Shown here: piece by piece, positions 895-22,113 of the stretch
How positions within the stretch are numbered: position 1 is the first letter of the stretch
Layout of the letters: every line of letters begins with the position of its first letter
Origin: Verrucomicrobiota bacterium
GTDB lineage: Bacteria; Verrucomicrobiota; Verrucomicrobiia; Limisphaerales; UBA9464
Direction of reading: 5' to 3'
DNA: 37,114 bases
Assembly: GCA_947471985.1 (NCBI GenBank)
Contig: CANIZL010000069.1
Location: 1 to 37,114 of the forward strand
Program-made: the position numbers and the translations under genes
Notes under the pieces: generated by a model
Database searches by the model: none
What the model was told of the DNA's origin: nothing
The model's input: the letters and a program-made list of their open reading frames with translations, nothing else

Positions 895-2496
895 ATGGAA
901 CGTCGCCCCGACCTGCCTCCGTGCGTGATGCATGAAGACGAGCATCTCCTCGTCGTGCATAAACCATCAGGCTGGAACACTCACGCCCCAGCCCCGCACG
1001 CCGGCGAAGGCATCTACGATTGGTTGCGCCATCGCGAAGCCCGGTGGTCCAGCCTGAGCATTCTGCACCGATTGGACAAGGACACCAGCGGCGTCCTCGT
1101 CTTTGGAAAAACCGCCGCCGCCAACCAATCGCTGACCCAGCAGTTCACCGCCCGGTCGATGGTTAAGCGCTATCGTCTCTGGGTACGCCAGCAACCCGCC
1201 AAAGCGGCATGGACCGCCGTGTCCGCGTTGATCCGGGCGGGCGATCGATATATCAGCCGGGCAACCACCGCGGGTGGCGAAATAGCGGAAACGGCGTTCC
1301 GGCTATTGGCGCCCGTCAAGCACGCCACCGGGATCTACTGGGAATTGGAAGCCACACCTCGCACAGGTCGGACCCACCAGATTCGCGTCCACGCCGCCGA
1401 CGCCGGTTGTCCGATCGTGGGGGACACGCTCTACGGCGGCGTGGCCTTCCCCCGGTTGTGCCTGCACGCTGCCGAATTGGAGTTCACCCATCCCATTCCG
1501 CCCGAGACGTGCCGCTTTCAGTGTCCGCCGGACTTTGGCGCCGAACCCCGGGCGCGATTGCGGGCGGCCTTCATCGACCCCGCGGCCACGAATGCCTTCC
1601 GACGGCACCACGGGGCGGCCGACGGCACCGACGGCGTCTACCTCGATCAATTGGGAGAGTTCACGCTACTGCAAACCGCGGTACCCGGGCCGCTGCCGCA
1701 ATCCATCCCGGCCGATGCCAACCTGTACCGCAAGCTCCTGCGACGGGATGTCCGCCAAACCACGACAGCGGAAACGAGTCCCCAACTGCTCCAAGGCCGG
1801 GAGGCACCGGAACAATTCCAAATCCGGGAGAACGGCGTCCAATTCGAACTCAGCCTCCGCGAAGGCTACAGCGTCGGCCTTTTTCTCGACCAACGCGACA
1901 ATCGCCGTCGACTGCTCACCCAACACGTCGCCGCCAACTTCCCCCTGCGCCCCGACTCGTCGAACCTGCACGGCGCCGAAGTATTGAATGCCTTCGCCTA
2001 CACCTGCGGCTTCAGTGTCTGCGCCGCTCTGGCCGGAGCCCGAACCACGTCCCTGGATCTCTCCCGCAAATATTTGGACTGGGGCCGTCGCAATTTCGTC
2101 CACAACGGCCTCGACCCCGCCGCCCATGATTTCATCTATGGAGACTGCTTTGACTGGATGAAGCGGTTGGCGAAGAAAGGTCGGAGCTACGATGTCGTGC
2201 TGCTGGATCCACCCACTTTCTCCCGATCCAAAGAGCAGGGCGATTTCCGAGCCGAACACGATTACGGCCAGTTGGTGCAAACGGCCCTGCCGCTGGTGAA
2301 GCCCGGCGGCGTCCTTTTTGCCTCCACCAACGCCCTTCGACTCGAGCCCGAGGCATTCCTCGGACAGATCCACGCGGCCCTCGAACGTGCCGGACGACGG
2401 AGCCTCGCGGAACATTACGTCCCGCAATCACCGGACTTCCCCATCGCCCGCGAAGAACCGGGCCACCTGAAAACCGTCTGGCTCCGGGTGGAGTGA
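895..2496 (+). CDS. Fused RluA-type pseudouridine synthase and RlmI-type RNA methyltransferase
   Basis: The 533-residue protein has two enzymes in one chain. Residues about 10-215 form an RluA-family pseudouridine synthase: HRLDKDTSGVLVF (catalytic D61) and GRTHQIRVHAADAGCPIVGD (159-177). Residues about 245-533 form a class I SAM-dependent methyltransferase of the RlmI/RlmK type: SVGLFLDQRDNRR (326-338), the SAM-binding strand and loop VLNAFAYTCGFS (363-374), and the catalytic-site DPP loop VVLLDPPTFSRS (434-445). By family it would isomerise uridines and methylate a base in rRNA; the exact positions cannot be read from sequence. No PUA domain is seen. No S4 domain precedes the RluA part. The ATG lies one base after the upstream stop. 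Confidence 0.9.
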   Translation: MERRPDLPPCVMHEDEHLLVVHKPSGWNTHAPAPHAGEGIYDWLRHREARWSSLSILHRLDKDTSGVLVFGKTAAANQSLTQQFTARSMVKRYRLWVRQQPAKAAWTAVSALIRAGDRYISRATTAGGEIAETAFRLLAPVKHATGIYWELEATPRTGRTHQIRVHAADAGCPIVGDTLYGGVAFPRLCLHAAELEFTHPIPPETCRFQCPPDFGAEPRARLRAAFIDPAATNAFRRHHGAADGTDGVYLDQLGEFTLLQTAVPGPLPQSIPADANLYRKLLRRDVRQTTTAETSPQLLQGREAPEQFQIRENGVQFELSLREGYSVGLFLDQRDNRRRLLTQHVAANFPLRPDSSNLHGAEVLNAFAYTCGFSVCAALAGARTTSLDLSRKYLDWGRRNFVHNGLDPAAHDFIYGDCFDWMKRLAKKGRSYDVVLLDPPTFSRSKEQGDFRAEHDYGQLVQTALPLVKPGGVLFASTNALRLEPEAFLGQIHAALERAGRRSLAEHYVPQSPDFPIAREEPGHLKTVWLRVE

Positions 2497-13679: not shown

Positions 13680-15980
13680 TTACTTGTGCATGTTCTGCAA
13701 GGCCGCCGGAGGAATCCGCTCCAACTGCAGATCCAGTATCCAGGGGTTGTGCCCCAGTAGCTTTACCGGGACGGTCGCCAGATCGACCGTCGGGTCCACG
13801 ACCTGCTGGGGCGGGCGCAGATTGAGGGAGACCTCGGTCAAGGCCCGCACCGCCGGTTGCCGTCCGTTTTCCTGTTCCCAAAGGCGGGCCACCCGACGGG
13901 CATAGCGCCGCAGCAGGAAGGGCTGAGTGCTCGCATGCATCGCCTGCGACACCGTCATATCCCGCATGTAATCCCAGTCCACGTAAGGCGACCGATCCAG
14001 GTGCTCCGCGTCATCACGGACATAGGCAGCAGGGAGGAGACTCCGATCGGCCAACGAAACGTCCTCCAAATAGATCAGCAGCGCGTCTTCAGAAACATGC
14101 GCCTGAGCCGCCATCGGGGGACGCGTCGCCGGCGATCCCTTCCAGACCTTGCGATCGATGGCAAAAACCTTCGTCGGCAACAGCGGGAGCACCGCCGCGT
14201 CATCGACGACCAAAAACGCCGCCGCGGCCGCCGGCCGCTCCAGATTGCTGAATGGATCGGTTCGTTTGAGCATCGGCAACAACTGCCCGCTGCCCTGCCG
14301 TCCGTAAGTTCGTTCCAATTGCGTCAGGACCTGCCGCGGGTCCTGGCTCATCGGCTCCCCCTTTGAACGACGAGCCGCCGCATACCCATTAACCAGTTCC
14401 AACAGAGGAACGGTTCGCCGGATCACCTCGGGTTCCCGCCCGTAAAGTTCCCGCCAAATGGCGCTCAACCGGGACCGCGACTCCGCTTCCGTACGGGGCG
14501 TCGGTACGCCGGAAAACGGATTGTAGAGAACGCGTTCTCCGGTCATCGGCTCGAACAAAACCACCACCTCCGGCATTAGCGCCCAGTTGATCTCTGCCGG
14601 CCGCACCACCCGATAAAGGGCTTTGTCCCCGTGCCATGCCGTCCATTGAATCGTCGTCTTTCCTGGGGTATCTCGCGGAAATAGTGCCGGGTCGTCCAAC
14701 TGGAGCTTGAACGGGGAGGAGCGATAGACATCCGCCTTTAACCGCCAACTGAAGCTCAAGCCCTCAAAGGTGATACGGGAGTCCCCGGGAATGAGTCCGG
14801 CACGCAGGGGAAGGAGAGTCTGCAGGGTCAGCCAGAGGACGACTCCCGCGAGGCCGACTGTGGTGAGAGGAAAGGCCTTCCCCGGTGGTGGCACAGAACG
14901 CCGGGAACGGGAGGCCCACCCCAATGCCGCGCCGACGATCGGCAGGGCAATACCACCCGCCAGAAACCAATTCCAATCGGGACGGATCCAGCGGGGCGAC
15001 CGCAGCCAGGCACCCACTCGGGTCGGCCAATCGGGCTCCAGAAAAATGAAGATCGTGGTCGCGCCCAACAGAGGGAACCATTCGAGATTGCGAAAAAGGA
15101 AGAAATTGTTGGTGCAGTGAAAGATCAGGGTCAGGACCACACCCAACGCCCGGGTCCGCCGCGCCAGCAACAAAAAGCCCACCGCGAGATCAAATATCGC
15201 GCCGACGTAGCACAGGAAAAATGCCGGCCCGGGCCCCTGAACAAAGGCCAAAACACTACGCGCCCAGGTGGCCGGCAGATTGCCCTCAATGATCGCACGA
15301 ATGTGCGGTTCGATTAGAAAATACCGAACCGGCATGGCGTCGAGCAACCAATCCGCATTCAACTTTGCCACGCCCGCATAAAAGTAAGTGATGACCAACT
15401 GGCCCTGTAACAGCACCAGCGCCCACCGGGGAATCATCGGTACCTCCATCCCCCATTTCCTCCCACCAACCGCCCAGGCATAGCGCCGATCTGCGGGAAT
15501 CCAAACCATGAGAAAAGCGAAGAGGAGTTCCAGGTAGTAGTAACTCATCCAATAAGTGCGGGTGGATTCAATCGCGTAGAAATATCCCCACACCAGGAAT
15601 ACCGTGGCCGCAGCCCACCGGTAAGCCACCCCCAGTGCCACCAAGGCACTGGCAACCGCGAGCACTCCCACCAGCAGATGCATTCCCCCGGAGGGCAATA
15701 CCGGCAGCCACTGAAACAGGAGGTACGGAAAGTGGAAATGGAGATTGCTGCCAGCGTAGTAAACGTCCAGCGGAGTTGGCGCTCCGGTGATCATGGTGCT
15801 CGGCCGGACCAGCGTGATCGCCTCCAATAACATGATCGCGCCAAAGACGATGCGGAAGATGCCCAACGAGGCCCCACTGACCGGCGCCGACAACATCTCC
15901 CGCAGGGCGGACCACGGACCACCGCGGCGGAGTGCCGGATCCCCATCACACTCCCGGGAAGATGAAGCAGGCTCGTGCAT
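13680..15980 (-). CDS. HTTM-domain protein, vitamin K-dependent gamma-carboxylase-like
   Basis: A 766-residue integral membrane protein. Residues about 35-330 form the HTTM domain (several helices), with RTYWMSYYYLELLFAFLMVW (141-160) and ITYFYAGVAKLNADWLLDAM (197-216). The second matches the region around the catalytic base of human gamma-glutamyl carboxylase (K218 in AGVKKLDADW); here it is K206. Another helix pair lies around 345-395, followed by a soluble beta-rich part that begins with RITFEGLSFSWRLKADVYRS, as in the carboxylase. Bacterial homologues exist (for example in Leptospira), some without carboxylase activity, so substrate and activity are not certain. The start at 15980 has AGGGAGA 9 bases upstream. 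It follows the peroxiredoxin gene, but a terminator separates them. Confidence 0.8.
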   Translation of the reverse strand: MHEPASSSRECDGDPALRRGGPWSALREMLSAPVSGASLGIFRIVFGAIMLLEAITLVRPSTMITGAPTPLDVYYAGSNLHFHFPYLLFQWLPVLPSGGMHLLVGVLAVASALVALGVAYRWAAATVFLVWGYFYAIESTRTYWMSYYYLELLFAFLMVWIPADRRYAWAVGGRKWGMEVPMIPRWALVLLQGQLVITYFYAGVAKLNADWLLDAMPVRYFLIEPHIRAIIEGNLPATWARSVLAFVQGPGPAFFLCYVGAIFDLAVGFLLLARRTRALGVVLTLIFHCTNNFFLFRNLEWFPLLGATTIFIFLEPDWPTRVGAWLRSPRWIRPDWNWFLAGGIALPIVGAALGWASRSRRSVPPPGKAFPLTTVGLAGVVLWLTLQTLLPLRAGLIPGDSRITFEGLSFSWRLKADVYRSSPFKLQLDDPALFPRDTPGKTTIQWTAWHGDKALYRVVRPAEINWALMPEVVVLFEPMTGERVLYNPFSGVPTPRTEAESRSRLSAIWRELYGREPEVIRRTVPLLELVNGYAAARRSKGEPMSQDPRQVLTQLERTYGRQGSGQLLPMLKRTDPFSNLERPAAAAAFLVVDDAAVLPLLPTKVFAIDRKVWKGSPATRPPMAAQAHVSEDALLIYLEDVSLADRSLLPAAYVRDDAEHLDRSPYVDWDYMRDMTVSQAMHASTQPFLLRRYARRVARLWEQENGRQPAVRALTEVSLNLRPPQQVVDPTVDLATVPVKLLGHNPWILDLQLERIPPAALQNMHK

Positions 15981-16737: not shown

Positions 16738-17062
16738 TTTTAAAGAGTGTTATTGCTGTTGCGTACGCTTCGTTTTTGACGTCCCGGCCCGAAGAAAACC
16801 GACCGGTGTCAACGTGACCAGACAATCCACTTTGAGCCGGTTGCGTCGGAAGTCAAACGGCTTCGCCGCCGCGCCCAGCAAGCGGGGCCAGGATCCCACC
16901 CGCAGCCGCTTCCTCAACCTTCCCGCCCGCTGTCGGCGCCCGTCTGACACGGAATTGTTGCCCGGATAAAGCTTCCCATTGCTGCCGCTCTACGATTCGT
17001 TGCCCCGCTTGAGAACGTCACCGCCCCATCCCACCAACCGACTGCCCCTCTGTGCGTCGACA
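16738..17062. other. Divergent intergenic region between peroxiredoxin and GDPD genes
   Basis: These 325 bases separate two divergent genes. They hold no convincing gene: the open frames seen (for instance 16750-16950 on the minus strand) are basic, Arg-rich and resemble no family. A longer start of the GDPD frame at 16979 is possible but is judged less likely. No clear promoter elements or palindromes stand out. Confidence 0.5.
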
Positions 17063-17956
17063 ATGGTGCCGAACCTTCCCCGCCAAAGTCGCCCCGGCGC
17101 CCGGCTTCTCGGTGCGCGCTCGCGGTGGTTGGGGCAGGCACTGGGCGGCACGGCCGCAGGGTTGATCGCATGGCTGGGAATCATCAGTCACTCCCCCACC
17201 CTGCGCGCCGCGGACCTGCCCGCCCGAAAGCACTCCACGGTGATCATCGCCCATCGCGGCGAACACCTGCGGCATCAGGAAAACACCCTTCCGGCCATTC
17301 AGGGTGCGATCGACGCCGGAGCCGACTTCACGGAAATGGACGTCCGCCGTTCCCGCGACGGTGAGTACCTGCTGATGCACGATGCCACCGTGGATCGCAT
17401 GACCGACGGACACGGAAAGGTCGCCGATCTGAATTGGTCCGAGCTGTCGAAGCTCGTCGTTCAGGATCGCCGACTCACGAACGTCCCACCTTCCCGAATC
17501 CCGTTGTTTCGGGAGGCGTTGCCAGAGTGCCGGGGCCGCATTCACATCTATCTCGATTTCAAAGCCGGTGACCGTAAAAGCGTTGCCGACTTGGTTCACG
17601 CCGCCGGGATGGAGCTTCAGGTGATCGTTTACGACAGTGCCAAAGGCCTCGCCGAATGGTCCACCGTCGCGCCCAATCTGGCCCTGATCACCAGTCCGCC
17701 ACGGAACGCCGCCAAAAGTAAATCAGTGCTGGCGGATTTCGTGAATCACTTCCATCCGCAGGTCCTCGACGAGGCATCTGACGCCGCGTTCGTCGCGAAC
17801 GCTGTCGCCCTCGGCGTTCTGGTGTGGCCCGACATTCAAAGGCACGACGAAGAACCGGCTTACTGGCAATCCATCTGGGACCGGGGAGTCCGGGGTTTCC
17901 AGACCGATCACCCCGCGGAATTGGCTCAATGGCTCGAAAAGGAAGGACGGCGCTGA
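17063..17956 (+). CDS. Glycerophosphodiester phosphodiesterase family protein
   Basis: The product (297 residues from the ATG at 17063) would hydrolyse glycerophosphodiesters to an alcohol and glycerol-3-phosphate. The N-terminus looks like a signal peptide or anchor (basic stretch, then GGTAAGLIAWLGIISH, cleavage near LRAAD), so it should be periplasmic. The GDPD signature is complete: AHRGE with H64 and R65, EMDVRRSRDG (E91 and D93, metal ligands) and LLMHD with catalytic H106. The barrel ends with VLVWPDIQRHDEEPAYWQSI and GVRGFQTDHPAELAQWL, close to the usual G-x-x-TD-x-P end. A start at 16979 would add 28 residues before the signal peptide. It is followed after 163 bp by the small GIY-YIG-like gene. 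Confidence 0.88.
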   Translation: MVPNLPRQSRPGARLLGARSRWLGQALGGTAAGLIAWLGIISHSPTLRAADLPARKHSTVIIAHRGEHLRHQENTLPAIQGAIDAGADFTEMDVRRSRDGEYLLMHDATVDRMTDGHGKVADLNWSELSKLVVQDRRLTNVPPSRIPLFREALPECRGRIHIYLDFKAGDRKSVADLVHAAGMELQVIVYDSAKGLAEWSTVAPNLALITSPPRNAAKSKSVLADFVNHFHPQVLDEASDAAFVANAVALGVLVWPDIQRHDEEPAYWQSIWDRGVRGFQTDHPAELAQWLEKEGRR

Positions 17957-18119: not shown

Positions 18120-18464
18120 ATGGAAACTGCCGCCACTCCCGCCGCTGCCGCCACCAATTGGTCGGTTTTTGTCCTCCGCAATCCCGCGGACCGGTTCTTT
18201 GTCGGGCACACGGACGACCTCGAGGGCTTCCTCAGCACTGCCGACGCGAACGTCGCGACCTGGACGGCGCAACCGGGCCCCTGGCCGCTGGTGTGGAAGC
18301 ATGAAGGACTTACCGAAGCGGCCGCCCGGAAATACGAAATCAGTCTCAAGCGGGACAAAAACACACCCCGCTTCTTCACCCGTACCGGAGTTACCCCGCC
18401 GCCGCCGCCCGCGCCCGCCAAGCCGGGAGACGCCCCCGTTGACGCCGCTGGCCCTGCTGAATAA
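18120..18464 (+). CDS. Small GIY-YIG-like protein, apparently degenerate
   Basis: A 114-residue protein. Residues 14-35 (WSVFVLRNPADRFFVGHTDDL) match the start of the UvrC/Slx1-type GIY-YIG fold, where the usual sequence is [VW]Y[VI]L..., [FY]Y[IV]G. Here the GIY is replaced by SVFV and the YIG by FVG. The catalytic arginine helix is not seen, and LVWKHEGLTEAAARKYEISLKRDK (about 57-80) matches the later helix with EAAARKYE. This suggests a structural relic or a protein that binds nucleic acid without cutting it. The tail after residue 89 is Pro/Ala-rich low complexity. It lies between the GDPD gene and the exporter operon. Confidence 0.65.
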   Translation: METAATPAAAATNWSVFVLRNPADRFFVGHTDDLEGFLSTADANVATWTAQPGPWPLVWKHEGLTEAAARKYEISLKRDKNTPRFFTRTGVTPPPPPAPAKPGDAPVDAAGPAE

Positions 18465-18618: not shown

Positions 18619-19608
18619 ATGACGGCGTACTCCTGGTTGCCGGTGCTGATTCTGCTGCTGACCCGCGCCCTCGCTGTCGGCACTCCGGAGGTTCGCGACG
18701 CCAGCGTCTCCGCACTGGGCCGACTGGAGCCGGCCGGCGGACTGGTCCATGTGGCGGCACCCTATTCCATCCAAGGCCCTTCCATTCTGGGGGAATTGCT
18801 GGTCCGCGACGGTGAGTCGGTGACCAATGCACAATTGCTGGCCCGCACCCACACCCATGCGGCGTCACTGGCCGCGTGGCGTCACGCGGAGCGGTTGGCC
18901 GAAGCCGCACGCGCGCGCCAAACCCAGGCGGAAGCGGGCGCCAAGCCGGCTGAGATTGCCACGCTGGCCGCCGAAGTGCAGCGCGATGCGGCACAATTAG
19001 CCGACGCCCAACGGGAATTGCAGCGATTGAACCGGCTCCGGGCCGAAGGCGCTGTCTCCCAGCAAAGCCTGGACGAGGCCCACACCCGTTGGTTGACGCG
19101 CTCCAACATTGTCGAATCCACGTCGCGTCGACTGGCCGCGGGACAGGAAGTTCGGGCGGAAGATGTCGCCGTTGCTCGCGCCGAGGTCGCCGTCGCGGTC
19201 GCGCAGGCCGAACGCGCCCTCGAAGAATTAAATCAAACAATCATCCGCGCCCCGCAGGCCGGACAGATTCTCGCCCTTCACGTCCGGACCGGCGAACAGG
19301 TCGGCCCCGAAGGATTGCTCGATCTGGGACGGACGGACGTCATGGACGTCAAAGTGGAGGTCTATGAGACCGATATCCGGAAGGTGCGGATCGGGCAAAA
19401 AACGGAGGTCACGGGTGATGCCTTTCCGCAAAAGCTCACCGGCAAAGTGGAACAGATCGGGCGTCAGGTCCGAAAACATCGCCTACTGAATCCCGATCCG
19501 TCGGAGTTCGCCGATGCGCGGGTGGTGGAGGTCATCGTCCGCCTCGATAACGGGGTTTCCGTTTCGGGTTTGACCGGAGCTCTGGTCAACGTGCGCATCC
19601 TGCCGTGA
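18619..19608 (+). CDS. HlyD-family periplasmic adaptor of a DevBCA-type exporter
   Basis: The 329-residue product is a membrane-fusion protein with one N-terminal helix (SWLPVLILLLTRALAV). The biotinyl-lipoyl-like halves appear around GLVHVAAPYSIQGPSILGELLVRDGE and LNQTIIRAPQAGQILALHVRTGEQV, flanking a long coiled coil (roughly residues 75-195, rich in Ala, Glu, Gln and Arg). It ends with a beta-barrel-like part with DVKVEVYETDIRKVRIGQKTEV. DevB proteins of cyanobacteria do this job for glycolipid export. The start at 18619 gives a normal signal-anchor; the frame opens further up to 18532. The stop overlaps the next gene's GTG start in GTGA, so the two are translationally coupled. Confidence 0.88.
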   Translation: MTAYSWLPVLILLLTRALAVGTPEVRDASVSALGRLEPAGGLVHVAAPYSIQGPSILGELLVRDGESVTNAQLLARTHTHAASLAAWRHAERLAEAARARQTQAEAGAKPAEIATLAAEVQRDAAQLADAQRELQRLNRLRAEGAVSQQSLDEAHTRWLTRSNIVESTSRRLAAGQEVRAEDVAVARAEVAVAVAQAERALEELNQTIIRAPQAGQILALHVRTGEQVGPEGLLDLGRTDVMDVKVEVYETDIRKVRIGQKTEVTGDAFPQKLTGKVEQIGRQVRKHRLLNPDPSEFADARVVEVIVRLDNGVSVSGLTGALVNVRILP

Positions 19609-20798
19609 AAGTTTCCACCTACGCGACCCTGCGTGACGCGTTGCGCCCCGCTGGCGTGCCGTTGGCGTGGCGACAGTTAACCGCCCGTCGCCTGCGTTTT
19701 TCCGCCGCCGTCGCGGGCATTTCGTTCGCGTCAGTAATGATGCTGATGCAACTGGGCTTTCACGACGCGCTTTATGACAGTGTGATCCTGCTGCACCAGG
19801 CGTTCACGGGCGAACTCGTGCTGATCAGTCCCCAATACGATTCCCTGGGGGACGCCCGCACCTTCACCCGTCACCGCCTGAATCAGGCGCGGGCCGTGAC
19901 CGGTGTCGACCAAGCCCGCCCGCTGTATATCGGGATGGCGCCGTGGAAGAATCCCGAGACCCGGCATGACCGGACCATCTTCGTCATCGGGGTGGATGCC
20001 GCCGCCCCACCGCTGCGGTTGCCCGAGCTGACCCAGTTCCGCTCCATCCTGCAACGCCCGGATGAGATCCTGTTCGATGCCGCCTCCCGGTTGGAATTCG
20101 GTGACGTGGCCGCCCGTCTGCACGCGGGTGAATCCGTGGCGACCGAGGTAAACGGGTTCCGGGTCCGAGTCGCTGGCTTATTCCAGCTGGGAACCTCCTT
20201 TGCCGCGGATGGCAACGTGCTGATGGGAGAGCCCGCGTTTCATCGGCTCTTCCCGCAGCTCTCCCCCAGTCTGGTCAGCCTCGCGGTATTGGAACTTACC
20301 CCCGGTGCCGATGCCCGACACGTGCAGGCAGCGCTCCGCGAACGCCTGCCGGCCGACGTCACCGTGTTGACCCGATCGGAACTTATGGAGCGGGAGGTCG
20401 ATTATTGGGCGCGCCGCACTCCGATTGGTTTTGTTATCAGCGCCGGAATGATCATCGGCTTCATTGTCGGATCGGTGATCGTTTACCAGATCCTCTACAC
20501 GGACCTGAGTGATCATTTGCGCGAGTACGCCGTCCTCAAGGCCACGGGATGTTCGGACGGATTCCTGAACGGTATCGTAGTCCAACAATCCGTGGTGCTC
20601 GCGGTGGCGGGCTTCATTCCCGCCGCCGTGGTTTCCTGGGGGGTCTTCTACGCCACCCGCGTGGCCACGTCATTGCCCGCTTATCTGGATTGGAAAAAAT
20701 CGGCCATTGTCCTCTCCCTGACCCTCGCCATGTGCTGCGTGTCCGGTCTGTTGGCCCTGCGGGTGCTCCGTCAGGCCGATCCCGCTGACGTCTTCTGA
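19605..20798 (+). CDS. DevC-type ABC transporter permease
   Basis: This 397-residue permease belongs to the FtsX/MacB-like DevC family: PLAWRQLTARRLRFSAAVAGISFASVMMLMQLG near the N-terminus (first helix about 30-52), a long periplasmic domain (about 53-275), then three helices (about 280-305, 325-355, 362-385). The start of the last part, GFVISAGMIIGFIVGSVIVYQILYTDLSDHLREYAVLKATGCSD, carries the coupling helix typical of the family (EYAVLKATG). DevC works with a DevA ATPase and a DevB adaptor to push a lipid-like substrate across the envelope. The start is a GTG at 19605, overlapping the upstream stop. The ATPase gene begins one base after its stop. Confidence 0.9.
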   Translation: MKVSTYATLRDALRPAGVPLAWRQLTARRLRFSAAVAGISFASVMMLMQLGFHDALYDSVILLHQAFTGELVLISPQYDSLGDARTFTRHRLNQARAVTGVDQARPLYIGMAPWKNPETRHDRTIFVIGVDAAAPPLRLPELTQFRSILQRPDEILFDAASRLEFGDVAARLHAGESVATEVNGFRVRVAGLFQLGTSFAADGNVLMGEPAFHRLFPQLSPSLVSLAVLELTPGADARHVQAALRERLPADVTVLTRSELMEREVDYWARRTPIGFVISAGMIIGFIVGSVIVYQILYTDLSDHLREYAVLKATGCSDGFLNGIVVQQSVVLAVAGFIPAAVVSWGVFYATRVATSLPAYLDWKKSAIVLSLTLAMCCVSGLLALRVLRQADPADVF

Positions 20799-20799
20799 G

Positions 20800-22113
20800 A
20801 TGGACCCGCTGATCCAGCTGCGCGATGTGTACCACGCCTTCGGCCAGGGCGGGCTGAGAAAAACCGTCCTCCAGGGGGTCTCCGCCGAGATCCGGCGCGG
20901 AGAGATTGTGCTGCTCACCGGGCCATCAGGGGCCGGCAAGACGACGATCCTCACACTGGCCGGCGGCCTGCGGAGCGTGCAGGCGGGTAGCTTGCGTGTC
21001 TTCGGTGAGGAACTCTTCGGCGCCACCCCGGCCACCTTGTTGCGGATTCGACGCCAGATTGGCTTCATCTTCCAAAACCCCAACCTGCTGGACGCCCTCA
21101 CGGCGTGTCAGAACGTGGCGCTGCCCCTGGCTTGGGCCGGAGTCATCGATCCCACGGAGGCCCGGGCCCGGGCACTCGCCCGGCTCGAACAAGTGGGCCT
21201 GGCCGAACATGCCGACAAACACCCCAACAAGCTGTCGGGTGGACAACGGCAGCGCGTGGCCATCGCCCGGGCGCTGGTCGTGGAGCCACGATTGATTCTG
21301 GCGGACGAACCCACCAGTGCCTTGGACAAGCAGACCGGCCGCGAAGTCGTCGAACTGCTGCAACGCCTGGCCCAACACCAGCAGTGCACCGTCCTGCTGG
21401 TCACTCACGATCCACGGATTCTCGACATCGCCGACCGCACCTTGTCGCTGGAGGATGGCCAACTGATCTCCCACGCCCGCGGCGCCACCCAAATGGCCAC
21501 TCAGCTCACCGCCGGGGTGGCTGAACTCGGTCGCCCCGAACTACTCACCCGCCAGGTGGCATCGCTGGACGAACCGGCCTTCTTTCGATTCCTTGAGGAA
21601 TCGACCGGGGAAATGGACGAGCTTCGACGGGCCCTGCAAAAGGCCCGCGCGCAAGTATCCGCCGCCCGCTTTGATCAACTGCTGGTCGCGACGACGTTCA
21701 AGGCCGGGCAATTCCTCCGCGCCGACCGCGTGACCTTGTTTGCGGTGGACGCCGCCGCCGGAAAATTGCGTTCCCGGGTGGCCCAGAGCGGCTCGGACCA
21801 ACTCCTGCAGATCGAACTGGATATCGGTCAGGGTGTGGCCGGTTACGTGGCACGAACCGGGGAGGTCGTTCGTCTGCGGGATGCCTACGAAAGTCCGCTT
21901 TTCAATCGGGAAGTGGATCGGCGGACCGGCTACCGGACGCGCAGCCTGCTGTGCGTGCCAGTGACCAACAGTGCCGGCCAGGTGGTGGGCGTGGCCCAGG
22001 TGCTGAACAAACTCGGCGGCGGCGATTTCGATGAGGACGACGAACGCCGGTTCAAGGAATTCTTCCGTCCGATCGGGCGACTGCTGGACCAATTGATCGA
22101 CACCGAGAGGTAA
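20800..22113 (+). CDS. DevA-type ABC ATPase with C-terminal GAF domain
   Basis: Residues 1-225 are a complete ABC ATPase: Walker [10 protein letters not shown] (41-49), Q-loop [10 protein letters not shown] (91-100), signature LSGGQRQR (145-152), Walker [13 protein letters not shown] (165-176) and switch histidine H203. After a linker of about 60 residues with a helical, possibly coiled-coil stretch ([18 protein letters not shown], around 268-285), residues about 290-435 form a GAF domain. It ends in [13 protein letters not shown] (403-415), which fits NK-X5-F-X3-DE, the signature of cyclic-nucleotide-binding GAF domains of phosphodiesterases and cyanobacterial cyclases. [13 protein letters not shown] (376-388) also fits. 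DevA ATPases are usually about 220-250 residues, so this one is doubled by fusion. Last gene of the exporter operon. Confidence 0.92.

Follow-up and report, generated by a model that had tools for sequence, protein, structure and literature searches.

The heterocyst glycolipid exporter DevBCA-HgdD of Anabaena sp. PCC 7120 is among the described systems closest to the one reported here. DevBCA exports heterocyst glycolipid in Anabaena while its paralogues have other roles, including drug efflux (PMC8277102), and both DevC and DevA are dimeric in the Anabaena pump (PMC6161253). A second described protein of importance here is the Anabaena adenylyl cyclase CyaB2, whose GAF domains are seen in the structure 1ykd (PMC4411481). 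We analyzed a stretch of 37,114 nucleotides from a Verrucomicrobiota bacterium (contig CANIZL010000069.1, positions 1 to 37,114; this whole stretch is called the window below), which contains a devBCA operon whose ATPase, DevA, bears a GAF domain of the cyclic-nucleotide type at its C terminus. The interpretation we favor, with a confidence somewhat above even, is that this GAF domain acts as an allosteric gate on the DevA dimer and is set by a cyclic mononucleotide, probably cyclic AMP (cAMP).

GAF domain at the C terminus of DevA

The devA-type gene (window 20800..22113, plus strand) encodes 437 residues and scored 304.3 bits against TIGR02982 (cut-off 295.8) and 111.3 bits against PF00005. 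Residues 1 to 228 make up a complete DevA-family ATPase, with the Walker A sequence GPSGAGKT at 41 to 48, LSGGQ at 145 to 149, and H203. This core is followed by a linker (residues 229–289; 21484..21666, plus strand) and by the GAF domain (residues 290–430; 21667..22089, plus strand). The linker is probably helical, a description that is tentative because the helices were seen only in a low-confidence model; the single-sequence AlphaFold2 model had a mean predicted local distance difference test score of 41.9, too low for a fold search. On sequence evidence, the operon is confirmed as a DevBCA-type (MacAB-like) three-part exporter with a GAF domain on its ATPase.

To place the GAF domain we compared it with domain families and with proteins of known structure. 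It matched PF01590 at 59.6 bits (Pfam cut-off 22.4) and PF13185 at 40.4 bits, also above the cut-off. The nearest PDB entry found by phmmer was 1ykd (E-value 5.3e-36), followed by the phosphodiesterases PDE2 and PDE5 and, lower, PDE10. When the GAF domains of seven fusion proteins were used together as a profile, 1ykd was again the best match (E 3.9e-64); of the 28 rows that reached E 0.01, the top 21 (E ≤1.1e-12) included 20 cyclase or phosphodiesterase chains, and the last seven were ordinary GAF domains at E 8.2e-7 or worse.

The ligand contacts of CyaB2 GAFb are R291, T293, I308, T309, D356, and N359 (PMC4411481). By alignment with CyaB2 GAFa and GAFb and with PDE2, the residues R310, T312, V327, A328, D373, and T376 of the window's DevA (21727..21927, plus strand) fall, in this order, on the six GAFb contacts and are the putative ligand-pocket residues. 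R310, T312, and D373 are identical to GAFb, and V327, A328, and T376 are the residues of GAFa. The NKFDE motif, NK-x5-F-x3-DE, lies at residues 403–415 (22006..22044, plus strand) as N403, K404, F410, D414, and E415; it was absent from all seven other PF01590 matches in the window's genome. These data support the prediction that the domain, which is nearest to the cyclic-nucleotide GAF domains of CyaB2, PDE5, PDE2, and PDE10, binds a cyclic nucleotide.

The conservation of these residues was examined in seven full-length fusions, namely those of the window, of Nostoc sp. C052, and of the sampled genomes G173, G077, G102, G020, and G023. The N, K, F, and D of the motif are invariant in all seven and the E is kept in six, G077 having A at the position of E415. 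Four of the six CyaB2-type contact positions are likewise invariant, and each of the other two is kept in six of the seven. Contacts and motif together are invariant at 8 of 11 positions, whereas elsewhere in the GAF domain this holds for 24 of 130 (Fisher p 3e-4). Relative to the G020 and G023 orthologues, the nonsynonymous substitution rate (dN) was 0.24–0.25 in the GAF domain and 0.18–0.19 in the ATP-binding cassette (ABC) part, with a synonymous rate (dS) of at least 1.2, near saturation; the linker was the least conserved part of DevA, with a dN of 0.37–0.38 as against 0.18–0.25 in the neighboring parts. Among nearer orthologues the dN of the GAF domain was 0.19–0.26, close to that of the ATPase part. 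Since the dN of the GAF domain lies far below the near-saturated dS and close to the value for the ATPase, the domain has been maintained and, as judged from these rates, is under purifying selection much like that on the ATPase part.

Taken together, these results bear out most of an earlier sequence-only reading of the stretch, made from its letters without database searches. This reading had described a tightly coupled adaptor-permease-ATPase operon and located the DevA motifs, the conserved histidine, and the NKFDE residues, all of which hold. Its view of the operon as a DevBCA-type exporter with a cyclic-nucleotide-type GAF domain now has the profile and PDB matches, the pocket residues, their conservation, and a cNMP-binding domain in sister DevA proteins behind it. 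It had also asked whether the domain might belong to a GAF family without the nucleotide pocket; at the level of sequence, the nearest relatives are cyclic-nucleotide GAF domains with the pocket residues.

Distribution of sensor domains among DevA proteins

To count DevA proteins we took a score of at least 282 bits against TIGR02982 as the definition; lower rows (242 bits or less) were dropped before counting, and six of them were retained as the outgroup of a tree. Only the best seven or eight first-look candidates per genome were scored (five or four in some searches), and all DevA counts are therefore lower bounds. In 320 genomes of the window's order we found at least 10 DevA proteins in nine genomes, of which eight carry the GAF domain, one an unnamed extension, and one neither. 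Six of these eight fusions are complete, and those of G170 and G136 are cut by contig ends inside the GAF domain; the latter two miss the Pfam threshold of E 0.001 for GAF and were counted because the matches to the fusion profile and in tblastn extend into, or through, the linker and GAF. Thus the fusion, with its linker, recurs in seven other genomes of the order (the two cut ones included).

In 387 genomes from the whole phylum, at least 19 DevA proteins were found in 18 genomes: eight with a cNMP-binding domain, four with an unnamed extension, one with GAF (the window), five bare, and one, in G440, that is truncated. When the samples are pooled without counting the window twice, a cyclic-nucleotide-type sensor is present in 16 of the 28 DevA proteins and a C-terminal domain of some kind in 21, including an unnamed extension in five, while six proteins have none. 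In a set of 58 relatives, seven genomes matched the GAF domain alone at E 1e-10, and among them DevA fusions were present only in the window's genome, G020, and G023.

Twelve plasmid records matched at E 1e-60, and in one of them, plasmid pC052_C of Nostoc sp. C052, the match extended through the GAF domain. The sequence-only reading had stated that DevA proteins normally lack such a domain, which agrees with these plasmid records and fails in the genome samples, where most DevA proteins (21 of 28) have a C-terminal domain. The Nostoc fusion, FD723_RS37470 with protein accession WP_256875377.1, is 42% identical to the window's protein and has a complete NKFDE motif; it comes from a complete plasmid sequence of a cultured organism, and the DevB, DevC, and DevA of this operon each pass the NCBIfam cut-offs. 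Phage records gave no match to the Nostoc linker-GAF region. A pattern scan of genome contigs with the full protein returned 11 loci, 10 of them matching the ATPase side only, one matching part of the GAF, and none running across both, which is no evidence of absence because short exact patterns miss even known orthologues.

In a tree of the ATPase parts, which did not include Nostoc, the GAF fusions fell into two groups of five and three. One branch appeared in 1% of bootstrap trees, but the deep forks are open. The tree does not establish one common origin of the GAF fusions; neither a single nor a repeated origin is shown. As an observation apart from the tree, a 697-residue frame in a genome of the window's own family (G004:C12, loci L012 and L016) is matched twice by the fusion GAF and also has a class III cyclase match. 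With this CyaB2 layout, the frame is possibly a relative of the source of the GAF domain.

A different sensor occupies the same place in the eight DevA proteins of the phylum sample that carry a cNMP-binding domain. This domain (PF00027, 71.6–83.8 bits, cut-off 27.5) directly follows the ATPase core and has a fold unrelated to GAF. One such DevA was searched against the PDB; its closest match was a protein containing several cNMP-binding domains and bearing a TGME49 locus tag, which we take to be from Toxoplasma, followed by cyclic GMP (cGMP)-dependent kinases and regulatory subunits of protein kinase A. In the ATPase tree one starred branch (99/99) unites the eight cNMP rows with the truncated DevA of G440 and separates them from the GAF rows. 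Because the two domains are unrelated, the GAF and cNMP sensors were gained separately. That two unrelated sensors of one ligand class stand at one junction is the strongest argument that the ligand class matters.

In all seven cNMP operons where devB and devC were found, devC is present as two consecutive genes; around the devA of G638, which has a cNMP domain, the stretch covered gave no match to either devB or devC. Of the four cNMP operons examined for what precedes them, three (G329, G364, and G459) have a gene for an outer membrane efflux protein there, and G569 has a Fic-domain gene. In G440 (loci L069 and L126), a DevA core of the cNMP branch is followed by a transposase frame, presumably IS30-like, and an insertion may have cost this protein its C-terminal domain. 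Five further DevA proteins (L066 in G467, L044 in G481, L045 in G688, L049 in G329, and L110 in G170) end in an unnamed extension of about 190–200 residues that looks helical by eye. This extension had no Pfam match of its own in any of the five, and the one tested had no PDB sequence match at E 1; it is possibly a third regulatory domain at the same DevA junction.

Proposed mechanism, ligand, and alternatives

We infer nucleotide binding, a dimer arrangement, and gating as follows. Two DevA subunits would power one DevC dimer, each bearing a GAF domain on its probably helical linker, and the GAF pair would most likely dimerize beneath the ATPase pair, an arrangement for which MetNI offers a precedent (PMC10710835). 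The ligand of the GAF domain would be a cyclic mononucleotide supplied by class III cyclases of the cell, with cAMP a more likely candidate than cGMP. In CyaB2 GAFb with cAMP the solvent access of the terminal helices rises (PMC4411481), and by analogy the linker to the ATPase would be affected: binding would close the GAF pocket, the linker helices would move, and the ease with which the ATPase domains close on ATP would change. The second messenger would then set the export rate directly and not via transcription.

As to which nucleotide, PDE2 and PDE5 have a guanine-facing Asp; at what we presume to be the corresponding position, the eight aligned fusions carry Q, L, or S and CyaB2 GAFb carries Q. 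The pocket thus seems to lean toward cAMP over cGMP, a lean that is weak because CyaB2 GAFb on its own binds either nucleotide (PMC4411481). In the window's genome there are four class III cyclase-type matches and 14 PF00027 matches, 13 of them above the cut-off. One of the cyclase-type proteins, L028 (HisKA segment, receiver, and cyclase), has an intact-looking cyclase core and keeps residues that we take to be those of adenylyl cyclases.

Several observations weigh against a cyclic-nucleotide gate. The entry 4mcw ("metal dependent phosphohydrolase"), neither a cyclase nor a phosphodiesterase, ranks 10th in the PDB profile search. The Nostoc fusion deviates at two of the contacts (R310 to Q and V327 to N), and G077 is without the E of the motif. 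When a cNMP-domain DevA was used to search plasmids, 0 of 23 strong-match records covered 80% of the query. The NKFDE residues make no ligand contact, although single alanine changes in the motif abolished cGMP binding by PDE2 GAFb (PMC11977230). The supply of ligand is not distinctive either: each of the 15 other fusion genomes has at least one cyclase-type match, and such matches occur in 45 of 50 hand-picked genomes (25 with DevA and 25 without), fusion or not. The presence of cyclases was therefore rejected as a test of the fusion, and it shows only that the ligand could be made. Finally, the cNMP-binding domain of HetC, an ABC exporter, bound guanosine tetraphosphate (ppGpp) and not cAMP in vitro (PMC10986499), so that the type of domain does not settle the ligand.

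The HetC result also favors the view that the GAF domain binds some other small ligand, for example ppGpp, a dinucleotide, or a cargo-related metabolite, so that export would be gated by the sensing of product or stress. The ligands of GAF domains are many (PMC4411481), and in MetN and ModC the C-terminal domains are known to mediate trans-inhibition by the substrate (PMC10710835). A cGMP-type contact may also be missing from the pocket, given the Q, L, or S at the presumed guanine position in the eight fusions. We nevertheless consider a ligand of this kind rather unlikely, as the pocket and motif match cyclic-nucleotide GAF domains specifically and a canonical cyclic-nucleotide domain occupies this position in sister DevA proteins.

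A ligand-free GAF domain that joins the DevA subunits or docks another protein appears less probable still. Many GAF domains merely dimerize, and of the 28 sampled DevA proteins five have an unrelated, unnamed extension at this position and six have none; a dimerization module, however, need not keep its pocket, yet invariance is more frequent at pocket and motif positions than elsewhere in the GAF domain. Patchiness, with the fusion in 8 of 320 genomes of the order, would suit a decaying, functionless leftover of a fusion or an artefact of assembly. This explanation is very improbable and is mainly refuted by conservation, since seven other genomes of the order and the complete Nostoc plasmid carry the fusion with this linker, and the dN of the GAF domain is far below dS and comparable to that of the ATPase.

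Beyond the gate on the window's own DevA, we put forward a broader proposal more tentatively, holding it at somewhat less than an even chance: DevBCA-type exporters would include a second-messenger-gated class, whose DevA ATPase would itself bind a cyclic mononucleotide and be regulated by it, that evolved at least twice, with unrelated folds (GAF and cNMP) at the same junction, and whose GAF form apparently occurs in two phyla, the window's and the Cyanobacteriota, partly beside polyketide- or polyunsaturated fatty acid (PUFA)-type synthase genes.

Operon, cargo, and comparison with known systems

The other two genes of the operon lie upstream of devA on the plus strand, adjacent to it, and all three products score above their NCBIfam cut-offs. 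A devB-type periplasmic adaptor is encoded at 18619..19608 (TIGR02971 221.8 bits, cut-off 129; HlyD_3 and HlyD_D23) and a devC-type FtsX-like permease at 19605..20798 (TIGR01185 404.3 bits, cut-off 290.35; PF02687). devB and devC overlap by 4 bp, and a single base separates the devC stop from the devA start (20798 to 20800). The devB frame is open from 18532; the internal ATG at 18619 (Met30) is a plausible and the likelier start because the hydrophobic N-terminal segment, the anchor, follows directly. A scan of the 13 other window frames with Pfam revealed no TolC-type channel, a search that did not extend beyond these frames to the rest of the genome. The promoter scan gave no sites, and nine terminator-like sites were found in place of 3.8 expected, none of them directly 3' of devA. 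A small GIY-YIG-like frame (18120-18464, plus strand; 21.7 bits, slightly below the Pfam cut-off of 22.6) stands just upstream of the operon.

The sequence-only reading had assumed a lipid or glycolipid cargo, which found no support. No lipid or polyketide synthase was seen among the 13 other window frames by Pfam, PfaD was not found in the genome, and glycolipid as the cargo of the window's operon was set aside as unsupported. The sole lipid-related neighbor, a GDPD-family phosphodiesterase frame upstream (16979-17956), is a thin hint of lipid metabolism. Elsewhere in the order, PfaD (TIGR02814, 602-661 bits) lies beside devBCA-GAF on the same strand in G102, G136, and G170, about 1 kb from devB in G170, and it was not found in the other five GAF-fusion genomes, those of the window's branch (G000, G020, G023, G173, and G077). 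PfaD was found in only 27 of the 320 genomes, namely in 3 of 8 with the GAF fusion and 24 of 312 others (Fisher p 0.02, for rows that are not independent). Of 40 genomes picked outside the order, two gave PfaD matches: G638, whose DevA has the cNMP domain, and G440, whose DevA is truncated. The G440 matches sit inside frames of more than 6,000 residues. The neighbors of the Nostoc C052 fusion operon are two type I polyketide synthases, a nonribosomal peptide synthetase, ectB, and a carbamoyltransferase. A polyketide- or PUFA-like cargo is a fair guess for some fusion members and unsupported for the window's operon.

Two frames elsewhere in the window are recorded for their domain content. The frame at 895-2496 (plus strand) combines an RNA pseudouridine synthase domain (PF00849) with an S-adenosylmethionine-dependent methyltransferase domain (PF10672), and the frame at 13680-15980 (minus strand) encodes an HTTM protein of 766 residues with a match to the lumenal domain of vitamin K-dependent gamma-carboxylase (PF05090 and PF22777).

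In bacteria, cAMP is best known for its role in transcriptional signaling. If our interpretation is true, a pump motor that reads a cyclic nucleotide would couple the level of a second messenger to export at once, without a step of gene expression. Unrelated cyclic-nucleotide sensors at one spot of DevA would be a natural experiment on the gating of ABC motors, and with the fusion of Nostoc sp. C052 a cultured organism is at hand for a direct test of the idea. Among the matches listed in a search of the open-access literature there was no description of a DevA-GAF or DevA-cNMP fusion, which is no proof of absence from print. A review mentions major facilitator superfamily transporters with fused cNMP-binding domains (PMC10710835), and the fusion of a sensor to a transporter as such is therefore already known.

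Among transporters with regulated motors, MetNI and ModABC likewise have a C-terminal domain on the ATPase that controls its activity; in MetNI these domains pair across the dimer and methionine at their interface props the ATPase domains open, and ModABC is similar (PMC10710835). Unlike the DevBCA-type exporters, MetNI and ModABC are importers, and they are inhibited by their own substrate. Their regulatory folds are not known to be related to GAF. HetC of Nostoc PCC 7120 is, like the window's system, an ABC exporter with a nucleotide-type sensor, which is needed for function (PMC10986499). It differs in belonging to the peptidase-containing ABC class, with fused membrane, ATPase, and peptidase domains, in the fold of its sensor, in the N-terminal position of this cNMP-binding domain, and in its ligand, ppGpp.

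DevBCA-HgdD has the same three subunits, gene order, and families as the window's operon. TIGR02982, however, covers the ATPase only (220 positions), whereas the window's DevA has about 215 further residues that include the GAF domain, and no heterocyst or glycolipid context was seen in the window. The tandem GAF domains of CyaB2 (1ykd) and the GAF domains of PDE2, PDE5, and PDE10 are the best PDB matches, and the contacts and the NKFDE motif are largely common to them and the window's DevA. In CyaB2 and the phosphodiesterases, the GAF domains stand in tandem ahead of a cyclase or phosphodiesterase, whereas in the window a single GAF domain stands C-terminal to an ATPase.

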